Origin: a virus
Length of the DNA stretch: 46,900 nucleotides
Virus record (IMG/VR): IMGVR_UViG_3300018067_000009
Coordinates: 1-46,900 of that record
Strand: one strand, 5' to 3'
This document shows, in pieces, positions 15,196 through 39,409 of this stretch (position 1 is its first letter; each line of letters opens with the position of its first letter). The position numbers were made by a program, and so were the translations under genes. The notes beneath the pieces are model-generated. The model did no database searches, was not told where the DNA came from, and worked only from the letters and a program-made list of their open reading frames with translations.

Positions 15196-15561
15196 ATGGA
15201 AAAAAAGACACTAACACTCTCAGAAGTCCTCAAGTTAAATGAAGAATTAGATGGTCTAATCAAAGAAAGATTGCCAGTCTATGTTAAGTTTTGGGTACAC
15301 AAGCTAAAGAAAAGTATTATGCCGGACGTAGACTCAGCGCAGGTTAGCCAGAAAGAACTGTTCGACAAGTATGGCTATCAAGAAAATGGCCTGTTTAAAA
15401 TTAAAACCGATGGAGAAGGATATAAAATCTACATGGAAGAGACTGACAAGATGATGAAGCAACCTATAGAGATTGAGTATAATCCTTTTAAGATTTCCTC
15501 AATAGAAAATATTGAAACAAATGTTCCCTTAGACATATTTTTTAAACTAGTAACAGAATAG
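15196..15561 (+). CDS. Small phage protein, DUF1617-like
   Basis: A 121-residue charged, largely helical protein (LSEVLKLNEELDGLIKERLPV...). The pattern of an N-terminal helix pair, a middle KYGY segment and a C-terminal EIEYNPFKISSIENI resembles the DUF1617-type tail-region proteins of other siphoviruses; this is a weak recollection. It sits between fibre genes and the Pro-rich protein, so a tail assembly role is possible. Function unknown. Confidence 0.6.
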   Translation: MEKKTLTLSEVLKLNEELDGLIKERLPVYVKFWVHKLKKSIMPDVDSAQVSQKELFDKYGYQENGLFKIKTDGEGYKIYMEETDKMMKQPIEIEYNPFKISSIENIETNVPLDIFFKLVTE

Positions 15562-15597
15562 AGTATTTATATTTTTTCATTTTTTAAACAAACAAGT

Positions 15598-16224
15598 ATG
15601 GAACCGTACAAAGCTATTATCGTTCCGTTAGATGAACCTCCGGTGCTACCGCCAGGAGCAGGTGGAGAGCCTCCACGTCCAGACAACAGTCTACCGCTAT
15701 TTCCTTTTCATCCAATCGTAGTCCCTCCAGGTGGTACATGGCCAGGAGAGCCACCTCCTATAGGTGGTGGTGGAACAGACCCGTATCCTGACAATACGCT
15801 ACCCGGCGACCTACCAGGTAGCGGTGGTGGTGGAGAACAGCCGCCTAGGCCGGACATTGATTTGCCATTGTTCCCATTCCATCCTATCGTAGTACCTCCA
15901 GGTGGAAATTGGCCAAGCCAGCCGCCTACAGGTGGTGCGCCTAGGCCGGAGCATCCAATTTACTATCCGCCAGGAACCGAGCCACCAGTAGAGCCGCCTA
16001 CAACCGAGCCTCCGTATCCTGACAATACGCTACCTGGCGAGTTGCCTGGTGGTGGTCAACCGCCTATTCCTCCTACAGGTGGTGGTAGCGGCAACAGACC
16101 TAGCCATCCTATCAACCTTCCTCCTAACGACAGCGGATACTGGATATTCGTGTACGTCTATGGACTTGGTTGGGTATGGGTAGCTGTGCCTCCACAGAGG
16201 TCAGTTAAAGTAGCTAAGAAGTAA
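15598..16224 (+). CDS. Proline/glycine-rich repeat protein
   Basis: A 208-residue low-complexity protein, mainly Pro and Gly. Two unit types alternate. One contains RPDNSLPLFPFHPIVVPPGG (also RPDIDLPLFPFHPIVVPPGG); the other is PYPDNTLPG(D/E)LPG. The C terminus switches to an aromatic block, YWIFVYVYGLGWVWV, followed by a basic tail. The repeats are also visible in the DNA and could change copy number by recombination. Similar aromatic ends on Pro-rich proteins occur in Bacteroidota phages. It may be a flexible virion spacer. A hairpin terminator follows directly. Confidence 0.7.
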   Translation: MEPYKAIIVPLDEPPVLPPGAGGEPPRPDNSLPLFPFHPIVVPPGGTWPGEPPPIGGGGTDPYPDNTLPGDLPGSGGGGEQPPRPDIDLPLFPFHPIVVPPGGNWPSQPPTGGAPRPEHPIYYPPGTEPPVEPPTTEPPYPDNTLPGELPGGGQPPIPPTGGGSGNRPSHPINLPPNDSGYWIFVYVYGLGWVWVAVPPQRSVKVAKK

Positions 16225-16235
16225 CCTTTAAAATT

Positions 16236-16270
16236 AAGTAGTCAAGGTATCGGGCCTTGACTACTTTCTA
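16236..16270 (+). terminator. Hairpin terminator after the Pro-rich gene
   Basis: A perfect 12-bp stem (AAGTAGTCAAGG at 16236-16247 with CCTTGACTACTT at 16255-16266) closes a 7-base loop. The T-tract after it is short, so termination may be partial and allow read-through into the lyase gene 14 bases later. Confidence 0.65.
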
Positions 16271-16280
16271 AATTTAACAA

Positions 16281-17753
16281 ATGATAAAAATCAACGGATG
16301 GGCTACACAAAATGGTGGTACTACCGGAGGCAAAGGTGGAACTACTGTAACCGTTTCCAACGAAAATGATTTTCTAAATGCCATAAAAGGAACTGACCCT
16401 AAAATAATTTATGTAAAAGGTAAATTTGAAATTGGCTATGCGATGGTAGGTTCAAACAAGACGATAGTAGGTCTTGGCTATGATGCTGCTACGATAGGCT
16501 GCATTAGATTAGAAGGGTCTAAGAATGTTATCATCAAGAATATTAGCTGTAGCAATCCTGGCGGCGATGGTATAGCTGCTGCTGGAGCTACAAACTTTTT
16601 CATTAGTCATTGCACGCCTAACAACTGTGCTGACGGTTGTATAGACATAACCAAAGGCTCTGACTACTACACAGTCGAGTGGTGCAAGTTCTTTTACGAC
16701 AAGGACTTAGGCCACAACTTCCCGAACCTTGTAGGTAGTAGCGATACTGACCCTGACCAAGGAAAGCTAAAGGGAACATTCCATCACAACTACTACTGGA
16801 AGTATTGCACAGACCGTATGCCTAGAGTTAGGTTTGGTCGTGAGCATGTATATAATAACTACTATGACCCTGCTGTAGACCAAAAGGTTAGTGCCTTGAT
16901 AACAGCAGCTATCGGGTCAGAGGTATTAGCCGAGAATAATCATTTCGAGTCAGGAGATGATGCCTTTGAGATTAGAGAAGATGGAAAGTTAGCAGGCAGA
17001 GGTAGCACATATGGGTCTAAGTACATTGGCGACAGGGGAAATGGAAATGTTAGTACTGTGTTTATTCCTCCATATCCTTATAGCCTGCAAGACGCATCTA
17101 CCCTGGGTGCTACTGTGAGAGTGACAGCAGGAGTAGACGGTGACAGCGACCTGACAGAAGATGGAGGTAGCACAGAGCCACCAATCCCGCCTAACCCAGG
17201 TACAACGCTTAAGGTTAGTGCCGGCGATGATATCATCGTAGACATGCCAAAGGATTTCACCAGCTTTACTGTAGCCATTACAGGATTAGCGAATGGCTCT
17301 TACACAGGCAAAGTAGTCATAACCGGCAATGGCCAGGAAGTCCAGGACACGATGACTATATTGGTACGAGATACAACTACTCCACCGATACCGCCACCAT
17401 CCCTTAGCCCAATCGAGGAGTTCGTGCTAATCAATGCCGGAACTGACAGGGACGTAGCTTTTCTTCTTGAGGGAAATAGCTACTCCATTGCAGAGTTTGG
17501 GCCGAAACTAAACATCAGGGCTAATGCAACCGGAGCGGCATCCAAAGTTAAGTTTGTGCTAACAGGTGCTGAAAACAAAATCTATACTGACAATACAAGG
17601 CCGTTCGCATTGCATGGCAATAGCGGAACCAACTACTTTTATGGTACATGGAACCCGCCACCTAAAGGACAGATGAAGCTTGTGGCTATACCATATGACA
17701 GTGCAGGAGCGGAGCTACCCTCAAAAGAAATAAACTTCACCTTCATAGCATGA
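16281..17753 (+). CDS. Family 1 pectate lyase-like protein with two C-terminal accessory domains
   Basis: A 490-residue protein. Residues 1-255 match the polysaccharide lyase family 1 fold: INGWATQNGGTTGGKGG at the N terminus, DGCIDITKGSDYYTVEW near 118-134, then FHHNYY and DRMPRVRFG at 178-186, followed by HVYNNYYDP. The R.P..R.G segment holds the conserved arginines of PL1 enzymes, which cleave polygalacturonate by beta-elimination with Ca2+. Residues 300-365 look like an Ig-type domain. Residues 375-490 form a further beta domain often attached to secreted Bacteroidota carbohydrate enzymes. There is no signal peptide, so it is probably virion-borne or released at lysis. It may cut a uronic-acid-containing capsule or exopolysaccharide. 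Confidence 0.85.
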   Translation: MIKINGWATQNGGTTGGKGGTTVTVSNENDFLNAIKGTDPKIIYVKGKFEIGYAMVGSNKTIVGLGYDAATIGCIRLEGSKNVIIKNISCSNPGGDGIAAAGATNFFISHCTPNNCADGCIDITKGSDYYTVEWCKFFYDKDLGHNFPNLVGSSDTDPDQGKLKGTFHHNYYWKYCTDRMPRVRFGREHVYNNYYDPAVDQKVSALITAAIGSEVLAENNHFESGDDAFEIREDGKLAGRGSTYGSKYIGDRGNGNVSTVFIPPYPYSLQDASTLGATVRVTAGVDGDSDLTEDGGSTEPPIPPNPGTTLKVSAGDDIIVDMPKDFTSFTVAITGLANGSYTGKVVITGNGQEVQDTMTILVRDTTTPPIPPPSLSPIEEFVLINAGTDRDVAFLLEGNSYSIAEFGPKLNIRANATGAASKVKFVLTGAENKIYTDNTRPFALHGNSGTNYFYGTWNPPPKGQMKLVAIPYDSAGAELPSKEINFTFIA

Positions 17754-20896: not shown

Positions 20897-21113
20897 AGTA
20901 GACGGCGATTTTATCTACGCCGAAGATGGGACAATAGTTGCTGTGGTCACCGACCATTGCAGCGACGAGCTAAAGCGGGAGATAGAGTTTGGCTCCGAGG
21001 CATTGCCTATTGTCAGGGAGTTTATCTCCAACACCAATAGCGGTTCGCTACGGCCCAGGACAACAGTAAAACGGTTTGAAACTTTACTAAACAAATACGA
21101 GCTAACAACATGA
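20886..21113 (+). CDS. 75-residue hypothetical protein
   Basis: A small protein overlapping the nuclease gene by 11 bases and the methyltransferase start by 4 (ATGA). It starts MRLKVDGDFIYAEDGTIVAVV and then is helical and basic. No domain recognised. Tight coupling on both sides supports it being real. Confidence 0.65.
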   Translation: MRLKVDGDFIYAEDGTIVAVVTDHCSDELKREIEFGSEALPIVREFISNTNSGSLRPRTTVKRFETLLNKYELTT

Positions 21114-21829
21114 CAGAACACATTGAACAGATGCTAAAGGACGGTGTAATATGGGAACATACTAAGGTTGGCACCGTAGACTTTATACACGCAGACAACA
21201 TGCCATTCCTTAGATGGTGCAAGGAGAACATGCTATGGAAGTACTTCCACGTTGTCATAGCCGACCCGCCGTATGGTATAGATGTTACTAATATGAACAT
21301 GGGTACTGACAAGAAGATGCGTGAAGCATTAGAGGCTAAGTACGAAATGGGAGATTGGGACGGAGAGATACCAACTAAAGAATACTTTGAACTCCTTGAC
21401 TACGTAGCAAGGCAGCAGATTATATGGGGTGCCAACTACTTCACCGAACACCTGTCATGGTCTGGCCGTAGCTTTTGTGTGTGGGACAAGATGCTAAGTT
21501 ATACAGCGTTCTCCCATGCTGAATTAGCACTGACAACCTACGATCAAAACGCTGTGATTGTACCCTATGCCAGGGGAAGACTTGAGAAGCAGGACGAAGG
21601 CCGTAGACACCGGACACAGAAGCCAGTCTACCTGTATGACTACCTGCACCTGACGTATGTGCAGAAAGGTCAGAGGATATTAGACACTCATGGTGGTTCG
21701 TTCAGTCATGCCATAGCTGCTATCAAGAACGGAAATCATTTAATCATAATGGACAAGCAGAAAAGCTACTATGATGCCGGTATTGCTGCTGCTAAAGAAA
21801 CTTTAAAAACGCCGAGGTTGGCATTCTAA
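21110..21829 (+). CDS. DNA methyltransferase, N6-adenine/N4-cytosine beta-class type
   Basis: A 239-residue enzyme. Catalytic motif IV DPPYG is at residues 52-56. The AdoMet-binding part follows later, with RTQKPVYLYDYL and then ILDTHGGSFSHAIAA as a motif-I-like segment. Catalytic motif before AdoMet motif is the beta-class order. Such enzymes transfer a methyl group to an exocyclic amino group of A (or C) in a short target. No partner restriction gene is present, so it is an orphan, probably protecting phage DNA. The target is unknown; the rarity of GATC in this genome makes its relation to that site worth testing. Confidence 0.88.
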   Translation: MTEHIEQMLKDGVIWEHTKVGTVDFIHADNMPFLRWCKENMLWKYFHVVIADPPYGIDVTNMNMGTDKKMREALEAKYEMGDWDGEIPTKEYFELLDYVARQQIIWGANYFTEHLSWSGRSFCVWDKMLSYTAFSHAELALTTYDQNAVIVPYARGRLEKQDEGRRHRTQKPVYLYDYLHLTYVQKGQRILDTHGGSFSHAIAAIKNGNHLIIMDKQKSYYDAGIAAAKETLKTPRLAF

Positions 21830-22371: not shown

Positions 22372-22468
22372 AGGAAACAAAATTGCATTGATACTTGCGA
22401 TAGTATCCGTTATAGTATCTTTAATTGCAGTAATAATACAAATTGTAGACAATGCTAGAACGCAGTAA
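22358..22468 (+). CDS. 36-residue membrane peptide
   Basis: A tiny ORF, MNIDRGNKIALILAIVSVIV continuing SLIAVIIQIVDNARTQ. A single TM helix between charged ends. It overlaps the previous peptide by 14 bases and the next gene by 17. The two neighbouring one-helix peptides are of similar size; they may be a lysis or membrane-takeover pair, but that is a guess from form. Confidence 0.55.
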   Translation: MNIDRGNKIALILAIVSVIVSLIAVIIQIVDNARTQ

Positions 22469-23114
22469 AATAAGAATACTCGTAGCTTGCGAGGAGTCTA
22501 ACGCAGTAAGCGGCAGGTTTAATGATGCTGGTTTTGATAGCTGGAGTTGTGACTTACAATATAGCTCTGACATTTTTAACAAGAAGCATTATAGATGTAG
22601 CGTGTTTGACATAATAAACGATGGCTGGCATTGCCTTATAGCGTTTCCACCTTGTACTCATTTAGCAGTTACTGGAGCTAAACATTTCCTCAAGAAAGAA
22701 AAGGATGGCAGACAGGCTGCGGCAATAGAGTTCTTCATGGCTATGGTTAATGCTCCGATACACAGGATTGCTATTGAAAATCCAGTTGGTATAATGAGTG
22801 GTCTACATAAGCCGCCTACGCAGATTGTTGAACCTTATTATTTTGGGGACAAAGCAACCAAGAAAACGTGTCTATGGCTGAAAAACTTGCCTCCACTATT
22901 TCATAATGCTAAACCTGATTTATTTAATCCGACCGCCACCCATGTAGACCGGGGCCGAGAGAAAGTCTACGGCGATGGGTCTAAGTTCTCCAAGTGGTAT
23001 GCTGAAACATCTAACTTGCCACATTCAGAACGTAGCAAGGCCAGGTCAAAGACCTTCAATGGTATAGCCGATGCAATGGTAGATCAGTGGTCACCTATAA
23101 TTGAAAGAGTATGA
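22452..23114 (+). CDS. DNA cytosine-5 methyltransferase-like protein
   Basis: A 220-residue protein of a phage family related to C5 methyltransferases. An N-terminal RILVACEESNAVSGRF segment resembles the AdoMet-binding start, PPCTH (residues 66-70) carries the catalytic-type PC pair, and IAIENP (106-111) is the ENP motif. The later KKTCLWLKNLPPL and SERSKARSKTFNGIADAM are characteristic of this family. It is much shorter than typical C5 enzymes and has no obvious target-recognition domain, so activity on a defined site is uncertain. It lies in the replication module, apart from the adenine-type enzyme at 21110. Confidence 0.75.
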   Translation: MLERSKIRILVACEESNAVSGRFNDAGFDSWSCDLQYSSDIFNKKHYRCSVFDIINDGWHCLIAFPPCTHLAVTGAKHFLKKEKDGRQAAAIEFFMAMVNAPIHRIAIENPVGIMSGLHKPPTQIVEPYYFGDKATKKTCLWLKNLPPLFHNAKPDLFNPTATHVDRGREKVYGDGSKFSKWYAETSNLPHSERSKARSKTFNGIADAMVDQWSPIIERV

Positions 23115-24808: not shown

Positions 24809-26379
24809 TGGAAGAAAGACTGTATCAAGAAGATTTAATTGATAGCCTTATAGAACTGGCTACCTCAAAGAGAAAAGTACTCGGCCAATTGCCTACTGGT
24901 GGCGGTAAAACTGTCATATTCGCTAAGATTTCAAGACGCTATTTCGTTAAACATGGCAAAGCTGTGCTAATCCTGGTACACAGAGAGGAATTGCTACGTC
25001 AGGCTCATAAGGCTGTCAAAGAGGTCTGTGGCATTGATGCTACCTTGATTACGTCTGAAACCAAACGTACTTATGCTAACAGGGTCTATATTGGCATGGT
25101 TGAGTCGGTTATGAACCGGCTACACAACTTTATCAATGTAGGCCTTGTTATTATAGATGAAGGTCATGTTGCTAACTTTAATAAAGTACATCAGTTCTTT
25201 CTTGAGGAAATAATCATAGCATTTTCGGCTACTCCAATCGCGGCAAGCAAAAAAGAACCTCTGAATAAATACTATAACGAGATTTGTACCGGCCCGCAGA
25301 TATCCTGGCTAATCAAGAACGGATATTTGGCACAAAATATGACAAGGTGTCCAAAGGACATTGTAGACTCGACAAAGCTGGAAGTTGACAGCCTAAAAGG
25401 TGATTTTAAGGAACGGGCGATGGCAGCAGAGTTTAGCAAGCCCAGGTATTTAATGGAAACGCTAAGGTCTTATCATAAGATAGCACATGGCACAAAAGCA
25501 ATCATATTCAATGTTACTAAAGAACATTCCAAAGCAGTTACTAAGCTATTTAAAGATTTTGGTTATCCATGTGAGCATCTGGACTCCGATACGACTATGG
25601 AGAATAGGCGCGAAATTTTGGCATGGTTTAAGGCTACGCCAGGAGCAATCCTCTGCAACGTGATGATAGCCACAGTTGGCTTTGACGAGCCTACGGTGGA
25701 GACTATCGTGTTGAACTTTTCAACCCTGTCTTTGCCTAAGTTCATCCAGTGTTCTGGCCGTGGTAGCCGTCCGATTGGACAGTATTTCATAGACAAGCAT
25801 CAGCATGAGTATCCATACAAGTTAGAGGAGAAGCAACACTTCAATATCATAGACCTGGGTGGGAACTGCATTAGATTTGGCGACTGGAATGACGATAGAG
25901 ATTGGGCCGATCTATTCCACAATCCGCATAAACCAGCCGGAGGTTTAGCTCCTGTCAAGACTTGTCCAGAATGTGATGCTTTAGTTTATGCATCGGCTAG
26001 AATTTGTCCATATTGCGAATTTGAGTTTCCTCAAAAAGAAAGGGAACCGGAGAAAGAATTTGAGGAGATAGTATTAGTGACTAGGAATATTGATATGGAC
26101 AGGCTAATCGTAAAACATGCCTTTAAGTATGAATATTATACGTTTGATGAATTAGCAAAGACTGTTGTTGAGAATTTGATAGAACAGTATCCTAACCCAA
26201 ATGAGAAGCAACGTCTAAAGTTCTTTGACATTTACTTTGGCTTATGTGTAGACTGGTATAAGAAAGTAATGGCCGGACGGAATGGCAATATACCTGACAT
26301 ATCTAATAGTACATGGCATAAGAACAAGGCGAAATATAATTTCGACCAACTACTTAAAAAAGAGCAATGCCTAGAGTAA
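24808..26379 (+). CDS. Superfamily 2 DNA helicase (DEAD/DEAH type) with C-terminal zinc motif
   Basis: A 523-residue ATP-dependent helicase or translocase. Walker A is LPTGGGKT at residues 28-35; motif II is IIDEGH near 112-117; motif III is FSATPI; motif VI is QCSGRGSRP near residue 315. Two Cys pairs (CPEC and CPYC, about residues 389-411) suggest a zinc ribbon following the helicase core, and a helical tail follows. Related phage proteins unwind branched DNA during recombination or replication restart. It overlaps the primase-helicase start by 13 bases, so the two are made together. Confidence 0.88.
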   Translation: MEERLYQEDLIDSLIELATSKRKVLGQLPTGGGKTVIFAKISRRYFVKHGKAVLILVHREELLRQAHKAVKEVCGIDATLITSETKRTYANRVYIGMVESVMNRLHNFINVGLVIIDEGHVANFNKVHQFFLEEIIIAFSATPIAASKKEPLNKYYNEICTGPQISWLIKNGYLAQNMTRCPKDIVDSTKLEVDSLKGDFKERAMAAEFSKPRYLMETLRSYHKIAHGTKAIIFNVTKEHSKAVTKLFKDFGYPCEHLDSDTTMENRREILAWFKATPGAILCNVMIATVGFDEPTVETIVLNFSTLSLPKFIQCSGRGSRPIGQYFIDKHQHEYPYKLEEKQHFNIIDLGGNCIRFGDWNDDRDWADLFHNPHKPAGGLAPVKTCPECDALVYASARICPYCEFEFPQKEREPEKEFEEIVLVTRNIDMDRLIVKHAFKYEYYTFDELAKTVVENLIEQYPNPNEKQRLKFFDIYFGLCVDWYKKVMAGRNGNIPDISNSTWHKNKAKYNFDQLLKKEQCLE

Positions 26380-28550
26380 GTATATTTCAAAATGTAAGGG
26401 AGGTAGACAATCCTGTGTTAATGGATTTAGTTACCTATCTAGAAAAAATAAGGGATGGAGAATGGGAAGATTTAGTTACAGAGTGTAGACTCATAAAAGA
26501 CATTAAGCTAAGAAACGAATTTAAACGGACTCGGATGCCTACGACTAGTATGTCGGGCATCTTCTCCAGAAGGGACGATAGCAGTCTAGTCACGCACAGT
26601 GGTTATATTGCTATCGACCTTGACCATGTTGAGAACATGGCACACGTTAGGAACCTGCTAGTCCAGGATATATTTGTACACTCACTGTTCATGTCTACGT
26701 CAGGCGATGGCCTACGAGTCTTGTTCAAGATAAAGACTAACAAACATGTAGACTCATTCAGAGGGATACAAGAATATCTATTTGGCAAGTATGAGCTAAA
26801 CTGTGACCCGAATGGTAGCAATGTCAGCAAGCCATATATCGTTAGCTGGGACCCCGCTATGTATTATGACTTCGATGGCAGGAAGCAGTTATTCTGCTAC
26901 TTCCCGAAGGAGATAACAGTAAAGCCGATTATAGACTTCGCACACACACCGGCAGATTTCCAAGATGTACTAAAGCAGATAACGGAACGTAGCCTGAACA
27001 TATGTGATGGATACCAAGAATGGTTGAAGGTAGCATTTGCCCTTGTCTCCACATTTGGTGAAGAGGGTAGAGCCTATTTTCATGAGATAAGTAGACAATC
27101 ACAGAAGTACCACCCCAGGCTAACAGACAAGCAATACACATACTGTCTAAAGCGTGGGCAGAGTGGTATAAACATCAGTACGTTTTACTACCTTGCAAAG
27201 CAAGCTGGAGCAGATGTAGTATCCGAGACAACAAGATTGATAGTCAGGACTACAAAGAATGGCAAGCGAGCGGGACTAAACAAGCAACAGATACTGGACA
27301 ATCTGCTAAAGTTTCAGAACATAACTGGAGCAGATAAGATAGTAGAACAGGTCTTGTCCTCAAAGGATGAATGGGTAGACGAGAAGGATAACACGTCTAT
27401 ACTCCAGCAACTTGAAATGTTTATAGGTGCCAACTACTCCATGCGAATGAATGAAGTAACTGGCTACCTGGAAAATGGCAAGGTGCAACAGCAGCCGTCA
27501 GAGTTGAACAGTATATTTATAGCTGCAAAGAAAGCTATACCTGTACTGGACTACCACTTGATGATACGACTGCTAAAGTCAGACTTCATACCTGTGTTCA
27601 ATCCATTCTTTGAATTTTTTGGTAGCGATGGAGTTCCATATAGACTTCCTGCCATACCGGAAGATGATACTAAGGTATGGGATAGCCCATTGATACAGCA
27701 GTTGTCTAATTGTATCATAAACGACAGCCAAACGTACACATTTTACTTTTTGAGGAAATGGCTCGTAGGCGTTGTATCCGCTATGCACAAAGTTCACTGC
27801 CCATTACTCCTGGCGCTGCTAGGGCCACAGAATACCGGCAAAACTGAATTCTTTAGACGGCTTTTGCCACATGAGTTAATTGGCTATTATGCTGAGAGCA
27901 AATTGGATAAAGAAACTGACGACGAGCTATTGATGTGCGAGAACATAATCATTATGGACGATGAGCTAAGCGGTAAGTCTAAGAAGGATACTCTAAAGCT
28001 GAACGCAATATGCTCGAAGCAGCACTTCTATCTAAGGCGACCGTATGGCGATCATAACGAAAAGTTGCTAAGATTGGCTGTGTTGTGCGGGACGTCAAAC
28101 TACCTGGAAATTATATCAGACCCGACAGGTAATAGACGTGTCATACCAATAAAGGTTGATAATATAGACAGGGTCGGCTACAATGCCATTGACAAGAAGG
28201 AGCTATGGAAAGAAGCATTTGCTTTGTACAAGGCCGGCTTTGACTGGCGAATAGACAACAAGGATATACCATTACTAAACAAGGATAAAGAAAAATTTGA
28301 AACTACCGTGAAAGAAAGAGAGCTAATACAAAAGTACTTCATGCCAGGCGAAGAAGTCTATTTAACAACAACTGAAATGCTGGTGGAAGTGGAACGACTA
28401 ACCAATCAGAGATTGCTAATGTCGGTTTTCGGGGCGGAACTGCCCAGGCTAAAGTTTGTCAAGACAAGTACAAGAGAAAAAGATGGCAGCACCTTAAAGA
28501 AATGGGGATGCGTCAGAACCAATAGGCCTAACGTATTTGAGTCAAATTGA
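26367..28550 (+). CDS. Primase-helicase (BT4734/VirE type)
   Basis: A 727-residue replication protein. The N-terminal 200 residues match the BT4734/VirE N-terminal type associated with primases: MSGIFSRRDDSSLVTHSGYI, then AIDLDHVEN, then FMSTSGDGLRVLFKI. The C-terminal half is a VirE/VapE-like P-loop ATPase with LGPQNTGKTEFF at about 485-496, IIIMDDELSGKSK as Walker B, a YLRRPYG segment and SDPTGNRRVIPI. It probably primes synthesis and unwinds at the fork, acting with the candidate origin at 33.7-34.2 kb. It is the last gene before regulatory region 2. Confidence 0.82.
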   Translation: MPRVSIFQNVREVDNPVLMDLVTYLEKIRDGEWEDLVTECRLIKDIKLRNEFKRTRMPTTSMSGIFSRRDDSSLVTHSGYIAIDLDHVENMAHVRNLLVQDIFVHSLFMSTSGDGLRVLFKIKTNKHVDSFRGIQEYLFGKYELNCDPNGSNVSKPYIVSWDPAMYYDFDGRKQLFCYFPKEITVKPIIDFAHTPADFQDVLKQITERSLNICDGYQEWLKVAFALVSTFGEEGRAYFHEISRQSQKYHPRLTDKQYTYCLKRGQSGINISTFYYLAKQAGADVVSETTRLIVRTTKNGKRAGLNKQQILDNLLKFQNITGADKIVEQVLSSKDEWVDEKDNTSILQQLEMFIGANYSMRMNEVTGYLENGKVQQQPSELNSIFIAAKKAIPVLDYHLMIRLLKSDFIPVFNPFFEFFGSDGVPYRLPAIPEDDTKVWDSPLIQQLSNCIINDSQTYTFYFLRKWLVGVVSAMHKVHCPLLLALLGPQNTGKTEFFRRLLPHELIGYYAESKLDKETDDELLMCENIIIMDDELSGKSKKDTLKLNAICSKQHFYLRRPYGDHNEKLLRLAVLCGTSNYLEIISDPTGNRRVIPIKVDNIDRVGYNAIDKKELWKEAFALYKAGFDWRIDNKDIPLLNKDKEKFETTVKERELIQKYFMPGEEVYLTTTEMLVEVERLTNQRLLMSVFGAELPRLKFVKTSTREKDGSTLKKWGCVRTNRPNVFESN

Positions 28551-33658: not shown

Positions 33659-34236
33659 ACACGCACAGCAGCTAAATTCATAACTCATTGATTATCAACC
33701 AAATTTAAATTGTGGTCAGGTCTTTTGGTGCTAGGTATGACCACAGTGATGATAGTCAATGAGTTAAGGTCAATTTGTGGTCAAGCCTCAGACACCCATT
33801 TTTAGGTCGAGACAATTGACCACAAACCTTTGACCACATATTGACAATCAATTGGTTATCCCTCTAAAGTTACCAAATGTGGTTAAACCTAAGACCTGAA
33901 TGAAAAAACTGAACACTTTATGGAAAAAAAATATTTTTTTTAAATCATCAATCTACGGTAGGTAGTGTGGCATAGATAGGGCTACACTAAATATAGTATC
34001 ACATCATTACGATTTTTTATTTATTTTCCAGTAACTATGGAACACATGCCGACCACGTCCTAGACCTGACCACAAAAATGTCGTTAGACACTGATTTTCA
34101 ATGAATTACAACTTTTTTTACCCCCTGAGACCTGACCACAAAAAGTGCCTTTAGACAACATAAAACAATGATTTTCAACACAATAATACAAAAAGGGTTG
34201 ACCACAACGAGTAGCATGATCTACTAAAAATATAGT
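33659..34236. other. Candidate replication origin with TGACCACA iterons
   Basis: A 578-base non-coding region. Eight exact octamers TGACCACA (or reverse TGTGGTCA) start at 33711, 33738, 33776, 33817, 33831, 34067, 34133 and 34199, plus near copies at 33888 and 34050. The last three lie exactly 66 bases apart and carry extended repeats: GACCTGACCACAAAAA, then TTAGACA, then TGATTTTCAA. Between the two groups is a very AT-rich stretch (A8-T-A-T8 type, about 33924-33946) that could melt easily. Iterons flanking an AT-rich unwinding element are the layout of phage and plasmid origins. No gene and no DnaA box were seen inside. Confidence 0.7.
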
Positions 34237-34512: not shown

Positions 34513-34856
34513 TGTATGAAGACCAGCTACAACAAGCATGTATCATGTGGTGGACTAACGTAGCCACAAGAGGCCATTCTTCTTCTTTGAGGAAACGCCT
34601 ACACTGCAACAATAACAATTCACATAATCGGGTAGCAGGGAACAGGGCTAAAGCCATGGGTGTGCAACCTGGGGTAGCAGACCTTGAGTTGATGCTACGG
34701 GATGGGAGGACTTGCTTCATAGAGTTGAAGCGGCCAGGAGGAGTGCAGTCTAAAGACCAGCATGAGTTTGAGATACTATGTAAGGAGTTAGGCCATGAGT
34801 ACCATCTGGTCTATAATATTGAACAATTTAAAACTATTATCAATGGAAGATTATAA
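34497..34856 (+). CDS. VRR-NUC domain nuclease
   Basis: A 119-residue PD-(D/E)XK enzyme of the VRR-NUC type. Key segment: GVQPGVADLELMLRDGRTCF then IELKRPGG. The G..D and E.K residues are the metal-binding catalytic set, followed by QSKDQHEFEILCKELGHEY with the conserved Q and the final helix. Family members cut branched DNA such as Holliday junctions. A phage one next to the small terminase would resolve branches before packaging. It overlaps the upstream gene by 16 bases; SSSLRKR is encoded over a TCCTCAAAG word. Confidence 0.85.
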   Translation: MESSMMYEDQLQQACIMWWTNVATRGHSSSLRKRLHCNNNNSHNRVAGNRAKAMGVQPGVADLELMLRDGRTCFIELKRPGGVQSKDQHEFEILCKELGHEYHLVYNIEQFKTIINGRL

Positions 34857-35313
34857 ACATCACTGGCAGGTAGTCAACCGAGGCCAGGTAGTTGCCATCA
34901 ACAGTCCGGAGGACTTGTGGTTCATAGCATGTGCCTACTTCAAGTGGTGCGATGAGCATCCGCTACAAGGTACAATACGGCCGTATAATATAAAGGGGCT
35001 ATGTCTACATGGCGGGTTCTCCGAGGAATATCTAAAAGACCTGCGGAACATGAAGGACAGGGATAGCTTATGGTGGCATGTGGTGGCCAGGATAGTGTAT
35101 GTGATACACCTACAGAACATTGAACTGGCTACAATCGGCTCGTACAATGCCGTATTCATTAGCAAACTCTACAAAATGGACACAGAAGAGCCCCAAGAAG
35201 GGGCTATAAAGATAGAAATGGTAACAAATGTGCCCAAGCTATCGGCTAATGAGAACGAGATTTTGACGAAAATGAATTTGGAAAATGACATTTTAGGCAA
35301 TGCAAAAAGCTAA
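34843..35313 (+). CDS. Candidate terminase small subunit
   Basis: A 156-residue protein starting at 34843 (MEDYKHHWQVVNRGQVVAIN). The segment SPEDLWFIACAYFKWCDEHP, then YNIKGLCLHGGFSEEYLKDL, resembles small terminases of the GP3-type packaging family (F..WC...P..I.GL....G.S...), which bind the packaging site and deliver DNA to the large subunit. The C terminus is variable. In many phages the large subunit follows directly; here 2.9 kb of unusual sequence separates them. Assignment by motif memory and position. Confidence 0.65.
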   Translation: MEDYKHHWQVVNRGQVVAINSPEDLWFIACAYFKWCDEHPLQGTIRPYNIKGLCLHGGFSEEYLKDLRNMKDRDSLWWHVVARIVYVIHLQNIELATIGSYNAVFISKLYKMDTEEPQEGAIKIEMVTNVPKLSANENEILTKMNLENDILGNAKS

Positions 35314-35328
35314 AAAACACGAAAGAGC

Positions 35329-35350
35329 ATTTTGGATTTCCAAAATTTTT
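35329..35350 (+). terminator. AT-rich hairpin terminator after the small terminase
   Basis: ATTTTGG (35329-35335) pairs with CCAAAAT (35340-35346) across a 4-base loop and is followed by TTTT. It ends the transcription unit and begins the unusual islet. Confidence 0.65.
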
Positions 35351-35427
35351 AGCCCATCCTGCGATGGCCGATAGTGCCTCATCGACGATGACCTTCGTAG
35401 TCCACCAGGTTAGTGTACTTGTACTTT

Positions 35428-35450
35428 GGCATGGTATTTGTAGCCATGCC
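35428..35450. promoter_or_regulatory. 7-bp hairpin upstream of promoter region 3
   Basis: GGCATGG (35428-35434) and CCATGCC (35444-35450) are perfect complements around a 9-base loop, 10 bases upstream of the DnaA-like site. Operator or structured end of the upstream transcript. Confidence 0.4.
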
Positions 35451-35454
35451 AGGT

Positions 35455-35600
35455 TGTCAGTGGATAACTTGTGTATAAACTTATTTGGTAATGTCATATA
35501 AAACCCCTATAGCGACCAAATTACATACCTTTGGCTGCTGTATCAAGATAAACCATTAACTGTTAAAATTTTGTTAATGGATAAAATAAATTTTGTGGTT
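35455..35600 (+). promoter_or_regulatory. Promoter region 3 at the islet edge
   Basis: AGTGGATAA at 35459-35468 is one base off a DnaA box. TACCTTTG (35526-35533) is a full match to the Bacteroidota -7 consensus TAnnTTTG. GCTGCTG at 35534-35540 and CAAGATAAACCA at 35544-35555 repeat the leader of region 2. TTAACTGTTAA at 35556-35566 is the shared palindrome, here downstream of the -7 element. It sits inside a larger inverted repeat, CCATTAAC (35553-35560) and GTTAATGG (35573-35580). A repressor there would block elongation or initiation. Confidence 0.6.
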
Positions 35601-35913
35601 TGAGCTAAAATGCTTATGAGCGCAAAACAGCCAAAGCAGCCAACAAAATAAATTTGGCAGTATTGCGCAAAATATGTATTGCATCCGCCAAAGCAGCCAA
35701 AGCAGCCAATTTGTACAAAAGTTGCAAAAATAAATTTGGCGGATTGAACAAAAATACAGGGTGTCTATATATATAAAAAAAGTATAATACTAAATCGCAG
35801 CATTGGCATTTTAAGGCGCCTTCCTGCCCGTCAAATATTTTTGGGCATCTTTGTACACCTGCGTAATTATCTGCCAAATTTGGGCAAATTCGATTTATTA
35901 TAAAAAAATATAT

Positions 35914-36003
35914 ATGTCTAAAAATTTGGTTTGTTGGTTTTATTGTTGTACGCGCGCGCGCCTTCCTTTATACATTGCCAAAGCAGCCAAACCCAGGATT
36001 TAA
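35914..36003 (+). CDS. 29-residue peptide (possible)
   Basis: A short ORF beginning MSKNLVCWFYCCTRARLPLY and ending in AKAAKPRI. The AKAAK is encoded by the nonamer repeat. The start context ATATATATGTC is shared with the ORF at 36095, which also begins MSK. Its stop lies in the left arm of the palindrome. Cys- and aromatic-rich, possibly membrane-active. May not be translated. Confidence 0.3.
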   Translation: MSKNLVCWFYCCTRARLPLYIAKAAKPRI

Positions 36004-36027
36004 GTACACTAAATTAGTGTACTTAAA
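35999..36027. promoter_or_regulatory. Perfect 29-bp palindrome
   Basis: TTTAAGTACACTAA (35999-36012) and TTAGTGTACTTAAA (36014-36027) are exact reverse complements around one base. The two-fold symmetry suits a dimeric DNA-binding protein; an RNA hairpin with no usable loop is less likely. Confidence 0.75.
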
Positions 36028-36094
36028 ATACCCTGGCAACCTGGCAACAAGTCAAAGCAGCCAAAGCAGCCAAAAAAACGTGTATATTATATAT

Positions 36095-36295
36095 ATGTCC
36101 AAAGCAGCCAAAAAAATAAATAAAAAATATTTTGGTTGTTTTGTACTTTGTATTGGTACAACATATATCTTTGTATCTCACAAAACAAAAAAGCCAACAC
36201 ATGGAAACAGTAATCTTTATTTCAGCAGTTATCGCAGTAATTTTACTTATTACAGTTATTGCCACAAAAGCCAACACGTCCAACCCTCACAATGA
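36095..36295 (+). CDS. 66-residue small protein with one hydrophobic segment (possible)
   Basis: ORF MSKAAKKINKKYFGCFVLCI...; a basic N terminus precedes a hydrophobic helix (FGCFVLCIGTTYIFV) and a Ser/Tyr/His-rich tail. The tail overlaps, in another frame, the membrane ORF at 36201, so one of the two C-terminal parts may be spurious. The KAAKK start is encoded by the nonamer repeat. Unknown function. Confidence 0.4.
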   Translation: MSKAAKKINKKYFGCFVLCIGTTYIFVSHKTKKPTHGNSNLYFSSYRSNFTYYSYCHKSQHVQPSQ

Positions 36296-36305
36296 CGTGT
36301 ATTAA
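36201..36305 (+). CDS. 34-residue membrane peptide
   Basis: METVIFISAVIAVILLITVI followed by ATKANTSNPHNDVY: one TM helix and a polar tail. Good start context (CCAACACATGG). Codon choice (no CTA, few AGG) is that of the islet. Overlaps the ORF at 36095. Confidence 0.45.
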   Translation: METVIFISAVIAVILLITVIATKANTSNPHNDVY

Positions 36306-36306
36306 T

Positions 36307-36324
36307 CCAAAGCAGCCAAAAAAA
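36307..36324. repeat. CCAAAGCAG repeat followed by A-tract
   Basis: Same CCAAAGCAGCC plus A7 arrangement as at 36061-36078 and 36099-36116. It lies in the leader of the ORF at 36358. The recurring A-tract suggests an expression role (AT-rich translation initiation) or a copied unit. Confidence 0.7.
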
Positions 36325-36357
36325 CCAAATTAACCAACCACAAAAAACCAAAGAACA

Positions 36358-36567
36358 ATGAAACACATTTTAATTTTAATCGACATTTGCCTTTTGCCTT
36401 TATTCATTACAGCAATATTCACTTTGGCAATATCTTACAGTTGCTCTTATAACTGCTTCAAAACTCCATTACCTTACTTTGTATTTTTCATTTCAATGTT
36501 TGGATATGTTTGTTTTGTTGCTGAAGAGAAACAAAAAGCCAAAGCAGCCAAAAAAAGCAGGTATTAA
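36358..36567 (+). CDS. 69-residue two-TM protein with repeat-encoded basic tail
   Basis: MKHILILIDICLLPLFITAI begins the first hydrophobic helix; the second is PYFVFFISMFGYVCFVA. Cysteines lie between them. The tail EEKQKAKAAKKSRY is encoded by the nonamer repeat, so the repeat appears to have extended the gene. Size and topology fit a holin or a small membrane effector. Its codon usage differs from the phage's core genes. No family recognised. Confidence 0.55.
   Translation: MKHILILIDICLLPLFITAIFTLAISYSCSYNCFKTPLPYFVFFISMFGYVCFVAEEKQKAKAAKKSRY
36539..36560. repeat. CCAAAGCAG repeat at the end of the two-TM gene
   Basis: CCAAAGCAG followed by CC, A7 and GCAG. It encodes the C-terminal AKAAKK of the preceding protein and lies just before the AT-rich leader of the next gene. 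Confidence 0.7.
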
Positions 36568-36639
36568 TTTTGTTTATTCGTTTATTTATTTGTATATTCA
36601 TTTTTTATTAAAAAGCCGGAAGGCACAAAAAAACCAGTT

Positions 36640-37404
36640 ATGACAGAGATTAATGTTATCAACCCGCTCAGCCTTGTTACCGAAAACAATCGTGTTAACC
36701 TTGACAATGGCACAGAAGCCACAGAAGCAGCAGAAGCAGCAGCAGCAGCCAAAGCAGAAGCAGAAGCAGCAGAAGCAGAAGCAGAAGCAGAAATTTGGAG
36801 TGACAAGTACACAAATGAAGCATTGGTTAAACTGCGCACAGAAGCAGAAGCAGCAGCAGCCAAAGGACAAACCTTCAAATTTGGCACAAAAGGATACATG
36901 CAATCCTTTGAAGCAGTACAAGCCATAACAGCCAAAATAAAGGCTGAAATTGCAGGGATTAAAAAGCAGGAAATCGAAGCAGCCAAAGCAGCCAAAGTAC
37001 AAGCAATTAACGACCAATTTGAAGCAGTTGCAGAAGCATTTGAAGCACTTGGAGTCAGCAAAGCCAATGGAGTACCGGCAGAGGTTTATGATGCAGAGAA
37101 AGCAGCAGCAACTGCACTTTTGGACGGCTGCAAAAACCTTGTGTTGGGAGCGCCAAAGCAGCCAACAGCCACAGCAGCCAACAGCGACCAAAGCAGCCAA
37201 AGCAGCAGCAATGGTGCATCACATGGCAATGTTAATTCTGCCATAATAAGCGAATATGTTGAACTGCGCAAAGGTATGAACCACACAGAAGCAGTCAAAG
37301 CCTTACAATCTGCACCATACAACAATGGCGAAGGCTTTAAACGTGGTTCTGTCAATACATATACCCGCAATTATCGTTTGAGTATTGGCGAGATAACTGA
37401 ATAA
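36640..37404 (+). CDS. Ala/Glu/Lys-rich repeat protein with possible C-terminal DNA-binding domain
   Basis: A 254-residue protein. Residues 24-52 are an almost pure A/E/K/T tract encoded by GCA/GAA/AAA repeats; 53-165 are long helices with further AAKAAK units; 166-200 form a Gln/Ser/Asn linker. Residues 200-254 are a compact domain containing ISEYVELRKGMNHTEAVKAL and FKRGSVNTYTRNYRL, which could be a helix-turn-helix or similar (inference). All Arg codons seen are CGN and no Leu is CTA, in contrast with the neighbouring phage genes, suggesting separate origin. Possible regulator or structural DNA-binding protein of the islet. Confidence 0.6.
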   Translation: MTEINVINPLSLVTENNRVNLDNGTEATEAAEAAAAAKAEAEAAEAEAEAEIWSDKYTNEALVKLRTEAEAAAAKGQTFKFGTKGYMQSFEAVQAITAKIKAEIAGIKKQEIEAAKAAKVQAINDQFEAVAEAFEALGVSKANGVPAEVYDAEKAAATALLDGCKNLVLGAPKQPTATAANSDQSSQSSSNGASHGNVNSAIISEYVELRKGMNHTEAVKALQSAPYNNGEGFKRGSVNTYTRNYRLSIGEITE

Positions 37405-37435
37405 GCTAAAACGGCCAAATTGGCAGAGCGGATAT

Positions 37436-37463
37436 AGTTGGGGAAAAATTTCCCCAACTTTTT
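37436..37463 (+). terminator. Strong rho-independent terminator
   Basis: AGTTGGGGAAA (37436-37446) and TTTCCCCAACT (37449-37459) form an 11-bp stem with at most a few unpaired A/T bases in the loop, directly followed by a T-run to 37463. It closes the islet transcript. Confidence 0.9.
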
Positions 37464-37763: not shown

Positions 37764-37877
37764 TACCGGTTTTGAAAAGCCATTGCCTAAACCCCTTAGT
37801 TTTTACCGGTTTTGAGTTATTCACCTGTTGAGCTTGCCTATCCGTCTGTTAGCATACCGGTTTTGAGTTATTCACCT
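37764..37877. repeat. Three direct repeats of TACCGGTTTTGA
   Basis: TACCGGTTTTGA starts at 37764, 37804 and 37855. Copies 2 and 3 extend identically through GTTATTCACCT (to 37826 and 37877), and copies 1 and 2 share CTTAGTTTT just before. Spacing is 40 and 51 bases. They precede DnaA box 37890 and promoter region 4, so they could be activator sites for the late operon. Confidence 0.8.
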
Positions 37878-37972
37878 CAACAGTAAAAATGTGGATAACT
37901 TTTTTTGGAAGCGTGACAGTAGCTAACCACCTTTACAGGGCAGATACCTTATCCTTTTCCTAGCTATCTATC
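37878..37972 (+). promoter_or_regulatory. Promoter region 4 ahead of the packaging genes
   Basis: TGTGGATAA (37890-37898) is an exact DnaA box on the minus strand. ACCTTTA (37929-37935) is the same element as in regions 1 and 2. The TTAACAGTTAA palindrome is absent; instead the TACCGGTTTTGA repeats lie upstream. That difference would fit late rather than early control. Confidence 0.55.
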
Positions 37973-38182
37973 GTGGTTGTATTAGCTAATACCGCTGATC
38001 TAACTGAATCTCAGTTACATGCCTTGATGGAAGTTATAAAGGCTATAGTAGCGGCAGCGGTTACAATCTGGATACTAATACGGCGTAAACGCAAAGATAA
38101 GAAGCGGCAAAAGCAGATAGACAGGATTGAGAATCAGACCCGCCCTAGGGTAGACAGCATACCACCACTAAAAGACCAGTAA
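37973..38182 (+). CDS. Small single-TM protein with basic tail
   Basis: Up to 69 residues if a GTG at 37973 is used (MVVLANTADLTESQLHALME); the first ATG is 38027, giving 51 residues. One TM helix (IKAIVAAAVTIWILI) is followed by RRKRKDKKRQKQIDRIENQT, then a Pro-rich end. Positive-inside topology puts the tail in the cytoplasm. It ends 9 bases before the terminase. A holin or anchor role is possible; unproven. Confidence 0.55.
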   Translation: MVVLANTADLTESQLHALMEVIKAIVAAAVTIWILIRRKRKDKKRQKQIDRIENQTRPRVDSIPPLKDQ

Positions 38183-38191
38183 TGATTAGAT

Positions 38192-39409
38192 ATGAAGTGT
38201 TCACCAATCTGGACAGAAACCGAGGCTTTACTAGCCAGTGGCGCTAGACGCATTATACACCAGGGCGGTCAGAATAGCGGTAAAACCGTGAATATTCTTG
38301 GAGCGCTAGCCAAAACATTGTCGGAGGAGAGGGAGCCTAGCGTAAATACAGTTACTTCACAGAGTTTTCCGCACCTAAAGGGTGGCGCACTAAGGGATTT
38401 TGAGACGTATATATATCCTACATTCAAGAGAGCAATTAGCAAGTATCACCGGACAGACCATTTGTTTACGTTTACTAGTGGCTCTATATTAGAGTTTAAG
38501 GTCTTTGAAACTGAAATGGCTGCGCATGGGCCTAAAAGAAAACGATTGTTTATAAACGAGGCTAACACTTTCCCATATCCAATCTTTTTTCAATTAGACA
38601 GTAGGAGTGACCAAACAATCATTGACTATAACCCTAGTTTGCAATTCTGGGCGCATGAAAAACTACATCACCAGGATGGCAACCATCTTCTCATTAGCGA
38701 TCATACGCATAACCCTTTTCTTAGTCCTAGTAAGCACCAAGAAATAGAGGATATTTGTATATTTGGCAGAGATGATGATGGTAAAATAATCTTTAATGAC
38801 AAGGGTGAACCACTGGTTATTAGAGGCGACTATGAATTATGGAAGGTTTACGCTAGGGGATTGACAGGTAATATACAAGGTATTATATTCCCTAAATGGC
38901 AGATGATAGACGAGTATGACTATCCTGAGGACACAGATAGCATATACAGTATTGACTTCGGTTATACTAACGACCCATCTGCGCTAATCAAACAGACCCT
39001 GGTAGGCAACACTCTATTCATCAAGGAATTGGCCTATGAAAGCCCGCTAAGTGCGAGAGAAATCGTCAGGCTACTGAGAGCCAATGATTTTTCCTTTGAG
39101 GAAAGCCCCCTCTACTGCGAACATGACCCCGATATGATTAGGGAGCTAAGAAAGTTCGGAGTTTACAATGCTCTCGCTGCCAGGAAAGGCGCCGGTAGCA
39201 TTAAGGCAGGTATCAGGCTACTAAACACCTTCGATGTACGTTACACCAATAATAGTAAGAACATCCACAAGGAGCGTAGCTTATACATATACGAATTTGA
39301 CAAAGTTTCAGGTAAATTTACTAATATACCAATCGAGTATAACAACCACGCTATGGACGCCATCCGATATGGTACCTATAGTCATTACTTGCGAGCAGAA
39401 GCAGCATAG
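38192..39409 (+). CDS. Terminase large subunit
   Basis: A 405-residue packaging motor. ATPase: Walker A GGQNSGKT at residues 25-32 and Walker B RLFINEAN near 116-123. Nuclease: SIDFGYTNDPSA near 252-263 and NNHAMDAIRYG near the C terminus carry the metal-binding Asp residues. Type is Terminase_3 (RNase H-like nuclease). It cuts concatemers and drives DNA into the prohead through the portal encoded next. The stretch FSFEES is encoded over a TCCTCAAAG word (39094-39102). Confidence 0.93.
   Translation: MKCSPIWTETEALLASGARRIIHQGGQNSGKTVNILGALAKTLSEEREPSVNTVTSQSFPHLKGGALRDFETYIYPTFKRAISKYHRTDHLFTFTSGSILEFKVFETEMAAHGPKRKRLFINEANTFPYPIFFQLDSRSDQTIIDYNPSLQFWAHEKLHHQDGNHLLISDHTHNPFLSPSKHQEIEDICIFGRDDDGKIIFNDKGEPLVIRGDYELWKVYARGLTGNIQGIIFPKWQMIDEYDYPEDTDSIYSIDFGYTNDPSALIKQTLVGNTLFIKELAYESPLSAREIVRLLRANDFSFEESPLYCEHDPDMIRELRKFGVYNALAARKGAGSIKAGIRLLNTFDVRYTNNSKNIHKERSLYIYEFDKVSGKFTNIPIEYNNHAMDAIRYGTYSHYLRAEAA

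Follow-up and report, generated by a model that had tools for sequence, protein, structure and literature searches.

A locus with a private DNA vocabulary between the terminase genes of related phages: a possible control region read by its own protein

What kind of locus confines about 2 kb of a phage genome, genes and spacers alike, to a set of short words that is not that of its relatives? The question is raised by the IMG/VR virus record IMGVR_UViG_3300018067_000009, the whole of which (46,900 nt) was analysed here and is called the window. Between its small terminase gene, TerS (34795–35313, + strand; PF16677, E 1.1e-11; phrog_606, E 3.2e-18), and its large terminase gene, TerL (38192–39409, + strand; phrog_5653, E 2.2e-24), lies a segment, the islet, which contains a 254-aa gene that we name isl (36640–37404, + strand). 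The islet has a conserved position and a private vocabulary, it ends at or near the isl stop, its gene is under purifying selection, and it has gained no new CTA or TAG relative to a close relative. The explanation that we favour, with a probability of about one in three, is that the islet is an ancestral phage-specific control locus, in which the Isl protein reads the private words and builds a local nucleoprotein complex.

Position and vocabulary of the islet

Relatives were gathered by TerL searches. A gap of about 1.9–3.5 kb with an Isl protein was found in all 16 loci that hold TerS and TerL on one contig. Eleven of them (the window, L001–L005, L010, L136, L140, L142 and L225) carry a first Isl family and five (L217, L215, L145, L221 and L216) a second one, which also occurs in L218 and, in part, in L220; L215, L217 and L221 are longer copies of L144, L143 and L147. 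The isl gene is present too in L006 and L007, whose contigs both start inside the gap. Nothing about isl can be learned from contigs L008, L219 and L224, which begin no more than 1.1 kb from TerL, or from G010, which breaks off 57 bp past TerS. A direct insertion is rejected because of this synteny: judged from gene order, the islet is not an insertion and probably has its ancestral place here in the lineage. Among more distant relatives, TerS lies directly before TerL in L137 (TerL 45%), as does, by eye, an open reading frame (ORF) of TerS size in L011–L013 (TerL about 42%). Neither a nucleotide search of a phage collection nor tblastn (E up to 0.01) of the same collection with Isl of the window, L136 and L145 gave any match.

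A sequence-only reading of this DNA had described the islet as deviant in composition, and it indeed accounts for the seven tetranucleotide windows that deviate most in the record. The description as AT-rich is right for the spacer (34% GC) and wrong for isl (45% GC). Odd codons had also been noticed in isl: leucine CTA is absent (0 of 13, against 31% elsewhere) and arginine is always CGN (6 of 6, against 31% elsewhere), yet the overall codon likelihood of the gene is ordinary (z −1.3). The dispersed repeat units of the same reading were confirmed by counting. In the TerS–TerL gap there are 16 copies of AGCAGCCAA on the + strand and one in reverse, with no copy elsewhere in the window, and 13 of the 15 window copies of CCAAAGCAG fall within the gap; the commonest islet 9-mer has 16 copies, whereas none of 300 first-order Markov sequences gave more than 10. 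Seven copies of AGCAGCCAA start inside the isl ORF and use all three reading frames (5, 1 and 1 copies); the repeat is therefore a feature of the DNA and not a protein repeat. A 14-mer of the repeat matches at least 120 stretches of viral contigs and is uninformative.

The relatives have islets of the same kind written in other words. A composition model trained on the L002 islet picks 35414–37425 in the window (97 nats; next segment 6.9) and ranks the gap stretch first in L001, L003, L004, L005, L006, L007, L010, L136, L140, L142, L143, L144, L145 and L147, weakly in L003, L142, L144 and L147. The private words are GCAGCC/CCAAAG in the window and L001, AGCT in L215 (85 copies, with 8.6 expected from the rest), AAGG/AGGCA in L010, CTTAA in L006, GTTAA in L145, CTAGC/CTAAC in L221, AGTAC in L217, CAGCC in L216 and CGCGA/ACTAT in L218. 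L215, L010, L217 and L218 have their words on either strand; in the window and L216 one strand carries most of them. Repeated 8-mers inside the islet exceed those of every outside window in 13 of 16 loci (exceptions L003, L004 and L007), and distinct 6-mers per window are fewer than in every outside window in 12 of 14 (exceptions L003 and L005); the window's islet has 564, against at least 672 in 418 outside windows.

The vocabulary is common to the spacer and the gene of each islet. When 5-mer profiles were compared after subtraction of the group average, the spacer best matched the isl of its own locus in 16 of 17 loci (mean r 0.35; 0 of 20,000 permutations), L136 ranking sixth. In the 14 loci with enough flank, self r was 0.339 and 13 ranked first, whereas random adjacent segments elsewhere gave r 0.117 (largest 0.164 in 60 sets) and a mean of 7.0 first ranks, at most 11. 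L001, a near-copy of the window, was left out of the 5-mer tests, L007, whose contig starts 137 bp before isl, out of these and of the AG-context tests, and L010, L140 and L145, which have little outside DNA, out of the 14-locus test. The L145 gap was taken from 1345 (1700 in the dinucleotide test) and thus includes most or part of TerS (1331–1807). These results show that the spacer and coding DNA of the islet share a restricted vocabulary that is private to each phage; the repeats and the absent CTA codons are expressions of it. As a separate observation, the TerS frame of L145 has one in-frame stop where relatives have Gln; a broken gene, an assembly error and stop-codon recoding are the alternatives.

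The vocabularies differ most around one dinucleotide. No other of the ten dinucleotides has contexts as altered as AG/CT (0.53 bits; next 0.36): in L215, 89% of AG have a C after them, in L010 about 76% have a G, in L006 about 86% have an A in front, and T never precedes AG in window 36016–37404. The focus on AG/CT was chosen post hoc from k-mer tables, with islet starts set by hand for several loci. The test against outside windows that followed used a single statistic, kept the same for all 18 loci. AG-context divergence of the islet exceeds that of every outside window in 17 of the 18 (L003 fails and L004 barely passes); in the window it is 1.17 bits, and none of 842 outside windows exceeds 0.30. 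The maximum-scoring segment of this dialect spans 35529–37405 (109 nats). Across ten loci the segment ends 1, 4, 47, 69, 200, −3, 36, 11, −6 and 23 bp from the isl stop, i.e. within 11 bp in five and within 200 bp in the other five, although the ends are not independent of isl, since the segmentation was trained from the TerS end to the isl stop of the same locus.

Many islets contain a long run without a given short word, and the word differs between phages. From 36016 to 37404 no CTA or TAG starts on either strand (1391 bp), where the density of the record predicts about 61. Comparable stretches lack CTA/TAG in L001 (58 expected) and L002 (56), AGA/TCT in L215 (1597 bp, 58 expected), ATA/TAT in L145 (25), AGC/GCT in L010 (1421 bp, 22 expected), CTC/GAG in L225 (22), and both AGAT/ATCT and AACT/AGTT in L217 (20 each). 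The most unexpected word gap of the record falls in the TerS–TerL gap in 11 of 16 loci, and outside it in L003, L006, L136, L216 and L218.

The ban can be followed over time in one genome pair, the window and L001, whose TerL DNA is 95.6% identical. Of the 128 substitutions in 36016–37404, none creates CTA or TAG in either genome, whereas 16.9 (standard deviation 3.6) were expected (0 of 400 simulations). The corresponding counts are 14 against 14.2 expected in the capsid gene, 9 against 11.9 in TerL, 3 against 7.0 in the spacer 35420–36015 (21 of 400 simulations) and 3 against 7.6 in the portal gene, which is somewhat low itself (15 of 400). The CTA/TAG ban is thus maintained at present. Inside isl, 0 of 65 sites in repeat words differ, against 43 of 694 in the rest of the gene. 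Identity to L001 is 92.8% in the leader spacer (35314–36200), 83–86% in the spacers behind isl, 98.7% between TerL and portal and 69.9% in 33660–34236, and a comparison of spacer identities is weak because identity varies in this way along the genome. The last of these regions is also fast-changing, beside highly conserved genes.

Isl, the other elements of the islet and the genome around it

Isl proteins diverge fast, with 13–48% identity in alignments, near-copies aside. Relative to L001, isl has 35 substitutions in synonymous and 8 in nonsynonymous codons, and is under purifying selection at short range. AlphaFold2 predicts long helices and a C-terminal three-helix, helix-turn-helix-like domain for the window's Isl (mean pLDDT 71.5), and a coiled-coil hairpin (pLDDT mostly 92–96) followed by a C-terminal winged helix (about 81–88) for that of L145. 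Isl is an undescribed and, on these models, probably DNA-binding protein. When 18 members were scanned against Pfam, PHROGs and NCBIfam, no family was matched by more than two; the best single match, Ku_N (PF03731, 9.2e-5, one member), was taken as chance. A sequence search of solved structures gave two designed proteins (E about 2e-6) and otherwise weak matches, none of them convincing. The first family is supported in 13 loci, and its C-terminal domain is shared with six more via L140: a ten-member profile matches L225 (1.2e-36), L140 (1.5e-26) and L142 (3.2e-7), a four-member profile of the second family matches L217, L218 and L220 (about 1e-13) as well as L140 (8.8e-6), and profile comparison of L140 with the second family gives 93% (E 3.4e-7). 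These comparisons indicate that both families share at least the C-terminal domain, the place and the architecture.

Upstream of isl, a non-coding leader with dispersed CCAAAGCAGCC units (35330–36200, + strand) was delimited by repeat counts and inspection. It contains a GTTAA-N6-GTTAA direct repeat (35562–35577, + strand), a candidate regulator site found by a motif search of the gaps. This motif is present at least once in the gap of all 16 loci tested, with 5 copies in total outside the gaps of the same loci. It stands exactly 24 bp 5' of promoter-like boxes of the form TTTG-N-TANNTTTG in four of the 16 (twice in L003, and in L004, L140 and L145), a spacing that was not seen in the other 12. 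The 29-bp palindrome of the sequence-only reading, TTTAAGTACACTAAATTAGTGTACTTAAA, was found at 35999–36027 (28 of 29 positions, arms 14/14) and is a candidate operator; a GTACAC-type palindrome is common to the window, L001 and L002, and none was found in the other 13 loci tested. The CG run of that reading is visible at 35951–35961. A candidate Bacteroidota-type promoter (TTTG, 22-nt spacer, TATCTTTG; 36140–36173, + strand) was recognised by eye and was not reported by a search pattern with spacers of 17–21.

Two small ORFs follow, both on the + strand: one of 34 aa (36201–36305; hydrophobic by eye, 63.8% DNA identity to L001) and the gene of a 69-aa membrane protein (36358–36567), which has hydrophobic stretches by eye and a 41% relative in L002. 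With 16 synonymous-codon and 2 nonsynonymous-codon substitutions relative to L001, the latter is constrained as well. Terminators had been placed at both ends of the islet. The one 3' of isl stands (37436–37463, + strand; a 10-pair stem at 37436–37459 and a T run), and with it the view of the islet as a unit with its own composition and terminator; the one at 35329 was not reported by the scan and is, by eye, an A+T-rich hairpin. Overall, the scan found 4 terminator-like sites against a shuffle mean of 3.8, i.e. no excess, and 5 promoter-like sites, below shuffles (8.1). Rfam gave no match at the gathering threshold, and islet windows do not consistently stand out in RNA folding z-scores. Apparent DnaA boxes 5' of TerL look by eye like arms of terminator-like hairpins and were discarded. 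Behind isl, near-copies of TTTTACCGGTTTTGAGTTATTCACC occupy window 37770–37900, fewer being present in L001, and by eye this array ends in a T-run hairpin before the late operon. A 69-aa ORF directly 5' of TerL (37973–38182) has a weak phage holin/spanin likeness (E 0.015–0.05) and is 59% identical to L001 over 59 residues, where TerL is 100% identical.

The two ends of the record share a direct repeat of 123 bp, and its close relative L001 is the window's genome opened at another point; for these two reasons the window is very likely a complete, circular assembly. Its genes run from large genes, probably those of the virion, through replication genes (a helicase and, at 26367–28550, a primase-helicase with PF05272, PF08707 and PF08800) and a VRR-NUC-like protein to TerS, the islet, TerL, portal, protease and capsid. 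The best match of TerL in the phage collection is a faecal record (35%), and 28 of the best 30 among 835 matching records are Bacteroides phages (about 32–33%). Promoter boxes of the type that we take to be the Bacteroidota consensus are present in relatives. From these matches and boxes, the host lineage is probably Bacteroidota. One phage contig of the lineage, L136 (SSFP01000025.1), lies inside a metagenome-assembled genome (MAG) labelled Polynucleobacter; since the TerL relatives are Bacteroides phages, this may be a binning error.

Two DNA methyltransferase genes (PF01555; phrog_757) lie in the replication block at 21110–21829 and 22452–23114, and their targets might bear on the private words. 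A DNA methyltransferase was considered as reader of the words and set aside: PF01555 was found in 4 of 9 virus records (G001, G006, G009 and G010), also on other contigs of MAG G007, and not in the records of L215, L221, L216, L217 and L225, which are fragments or incomplete. A second, smaller composition outlier (15400–16300; 5.0–5.6 median absolute deviations) has a higher GC content and adjoins a pectate-lyase-like beta-helix gene (16281–17753).

Candidate readers of the private words

Since its vocabulary is private, the islet calls for a reader, whichever it is, that tells DNA apart by words of 3–5 bp at high density and is blind to the words of relatives. We prefer Isl as this reader and hold the primase to be the strongest other candidate, without choosing between them. 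The locus sits where the early (replication) genes give way to the late (structural) ones, its leader has candidate sites, and it encodes a probable DNA-binding protein, which together suggest a control centre. In these phages, which probably infect Bacteroidota, the locus would comprise the leader and its candidate regulator sites, a small membrane-protein gene or a few of them, and isl. Oligomeric Isl, possibly with a partner, would bind many copies of the private word, in spacer and coding DNA alike, and the resulting nucleoprotein complex would act in cis as a centre for its own phage only, be it a late switch, an origin or a packaging entry. If selection favoured the cognate word and disfavoured near-cognate AG/CT contexts, each phage would acquire its own dialect, and private dialects would prevent cross-talk between co-infecting relatives. 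We infer DNA binding by Isl, its oligomerisation and the controlled process.

Several observations weigh against a control locus read by Isl. The putative recognition helices of L145, L215 and L216, delimited by eye, are nearly alike (NGT[AV]RTVIS) while their words differ (GTTAA, AGCT and CAGCC), and the helix-turn-helix of Isl may therefore not read the private word. A binding site alone would not obviously demand a ban on a 3-bp word. Between the window and L001, the words in the spacer are not significantly more conserved than their surroundings (5 of 110 sites differ, against 69 of 859; p 0.25), and alignment gaps fall in them more often (16 of 126 columns, against 24 of 883). The structure search that had been proposed for the isl product returned no fold match at E ≤ 0.001. 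The two Isl families are only weakly linked and are joined through L140 alone: a profile of the window's family fails to pick up the second family, the second-family profile finds L140 as sole first-family member, and direct comparison of the two profiles is weak (34% probability, E 4.2e-4, 42 C-terminal columns). Finally, L003 shows the dialect poorly, L218 has isl and no detected TerS (its gap start, 3900, is arbitrary), and L009 lacks both TerS and isl in the 2.97 kb before TerL.

The first alternative is a replication origin or priming zone, in which the primase-helicase would, like DnaG primases, read a CT-centred trinucleotide. Presence or absence of this site in the islet would be controlled, and Isl would be the initiator, its iteron-like words lying inside and ahead of isl. 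PMC5204125 gives CTG, CTA, TTA and CCC as bacterial primase sites. The primase owes its rank as strongest other reader to two facts, namely that the sites given there are trinucleotides starting with two pyrimidines and that the primase-helicase type of the window occurs in 8 of 12 records searched (44–63% identity outside the window clade). The rules of the islets are about trinucleotide-sized and strongest for AG/CT, both strands counted, and CTA is enriched outside the islet in the window (1.28-fold) and L002 (1.26-fold). This outside enrichment, however, is confined to the window clade among the loci compared, the private rules change between phages with related primases, some islets flood a word rather than ban it, and 4 of the 12 records (fragments) had no primase-helicase match. 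No origin evidence was found; repeated element-specific words are there as in an iteron-type origin, but no known initiator family lies adjacent, Isl (18 members) matching none. An origin is a possible yet unlikely explanation.

Lower still we place a packaging (pac) region, at which TerS or Isl would recognise the private words and start headful packaging of the right concatemer. The islet adjoins TerS, and the terminal repeat and the different opening of L001 are as for a complete circularly permuted genome. Conservation of TerS nevertheless far exceeds that of the words (68% identity in L002; 77% between L145 and L215, whose words differ), and known pac sites are short, which counts against this idea and makes it rather improbable. 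Of similarly low probability is a local mutation process (slippage, template switching or transcription-linked editing) that simplifies DNA without selection of words. It would fit the low complexity, the excess of gap columns in words between the window and L001, and a vocabulary that looks arbitrary. Copying alone, however, would not keep point substitutions from creating CTA or TAG, which none of the 128 in the word-free stretch does; the words are dispersed and in several phages occupy either strand, the isl stop coincides with the end of the segment or lies near it, and a reverse transcriptase (PF00078) as of a diversity-generating retroelement was found in none of 11 records searched, several of them fragments.

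Evasion of a sequence-specific host nuclease or guide system has in its favour the short words absent from both strands, different in each phage, and the small ORFs followed by a helix-turn-helix-like gene. A cassette without a 3-bp motif (e.g. a protospacer-adjacent motif) and rich in a host-specific protective word would survive and act on a partly destroyed genome, with the helix-turn-helix gene last in the operon, an arrangement like that of anti-CRISPR operons. The missing word, though, abounds in the rest of the genome, the rules are many and different, no host is known, and the words are palindromic or unoriented in several phages, all of which makes evasion very unlikely. The recently acquired foreign cassette (moron, satellite or anti-competitor unit) that the sequence-only reading had proposed from the composition, the terminator and the small membrane ORFs is highly improbable, since the segment lies at the same place with an Isl in 16 of 16 relatives that have TerS and TerL on one contig, in mostly different vocabularies, isl is under purifying selection, and the odd composition characterises the locus across the group rather than marking a recent arrival. 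The check on relatives thus cut both ways: presence of the segment speaks against foreignness, and its deviant composition in nearly all of them against ordinariness.

To our knowledge, a word that is banned or flooded at one locus is explained neither by codon usage nor by restriction avoidance nor by any known repeat class, and a literature search, with bioRxiv outside its scope, found no description of such a locus; the earlier view of the islet as a good candidate for an undescribed system is supported. The ban or flood spans coding and non-coding DNA, varies among relatives and persists in the one testable pair. We tentatively suggest that the islet may represent a new kind of locus, a cis element of about 2 kb whose coding and non-coding parts share a private grammar, with AG/CT admitted chiefly in contexts specific to the phage, and serve as an identity tag read by Isl. 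If so, a phage that switches from replication to packaging would know its own DNA and ignore that of relatives. If Isl reads the words, they are a self-recognition code beside the packaging genes; if the primase or a host nuclease does, the locus is a natural readout of that reader's specificity. Discrimination of self from non-self in phage replication or packaging becomes directly testable.

Comparison with known systems

In iteron origins (lambda O, SPP1 gp38, SaPI rep/ori), as in the islet, repeats extend into the gene of a DNA-binding protein and the words are short and element-specific; they have few defined sites, whereas about 2 kb of the islet, coding DNA included, is in one vocabulary with other contexts avoided. 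The stoperators of cluster A mycobacteriophages and SPBRE of SPbeta are many element-specific sites that differ between relatives and have a cognate DNA-binding protein, as proposed for Isl. These sites are longer and scattered over the genome, unlike the 4–6-bp words of one locus, and the integrase by which the phage-immunity class is recognised was not found (PF00589; 10 virus records searched, several of them fragments).

Operons of the acr-aca type have small ORFs followed by an autoregulatory helix-turn-helix gene, and palindromes at the promoter. The C-terminal helix-turn-helix predicted in Isl and the palindrome in the leader may recall this arrangement. No similarity to known families was found, however, the first ORFs of the islet look like membrane proteins, and we know of no acr-aca case with a restricted DNA vocabulary. 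KfrA/MatP-type proteins resemble Isl in combining a coiled coil with a DNA-binding domain that acts on one region. KfrA has another domain order, neither a sequence nor a fold match links these proteins to Isl, and they act on chromosomes or plasmids and not in a phage terminase gap. Lastly, HIP1 of cyanobacteria and DNA uptake sequences are, like the words of the islet, short and over-represented in coding and non-coding DNA alike; they are genome-wide and species-wide, whereas the words of the islet belong to one locus and are private to each phage.

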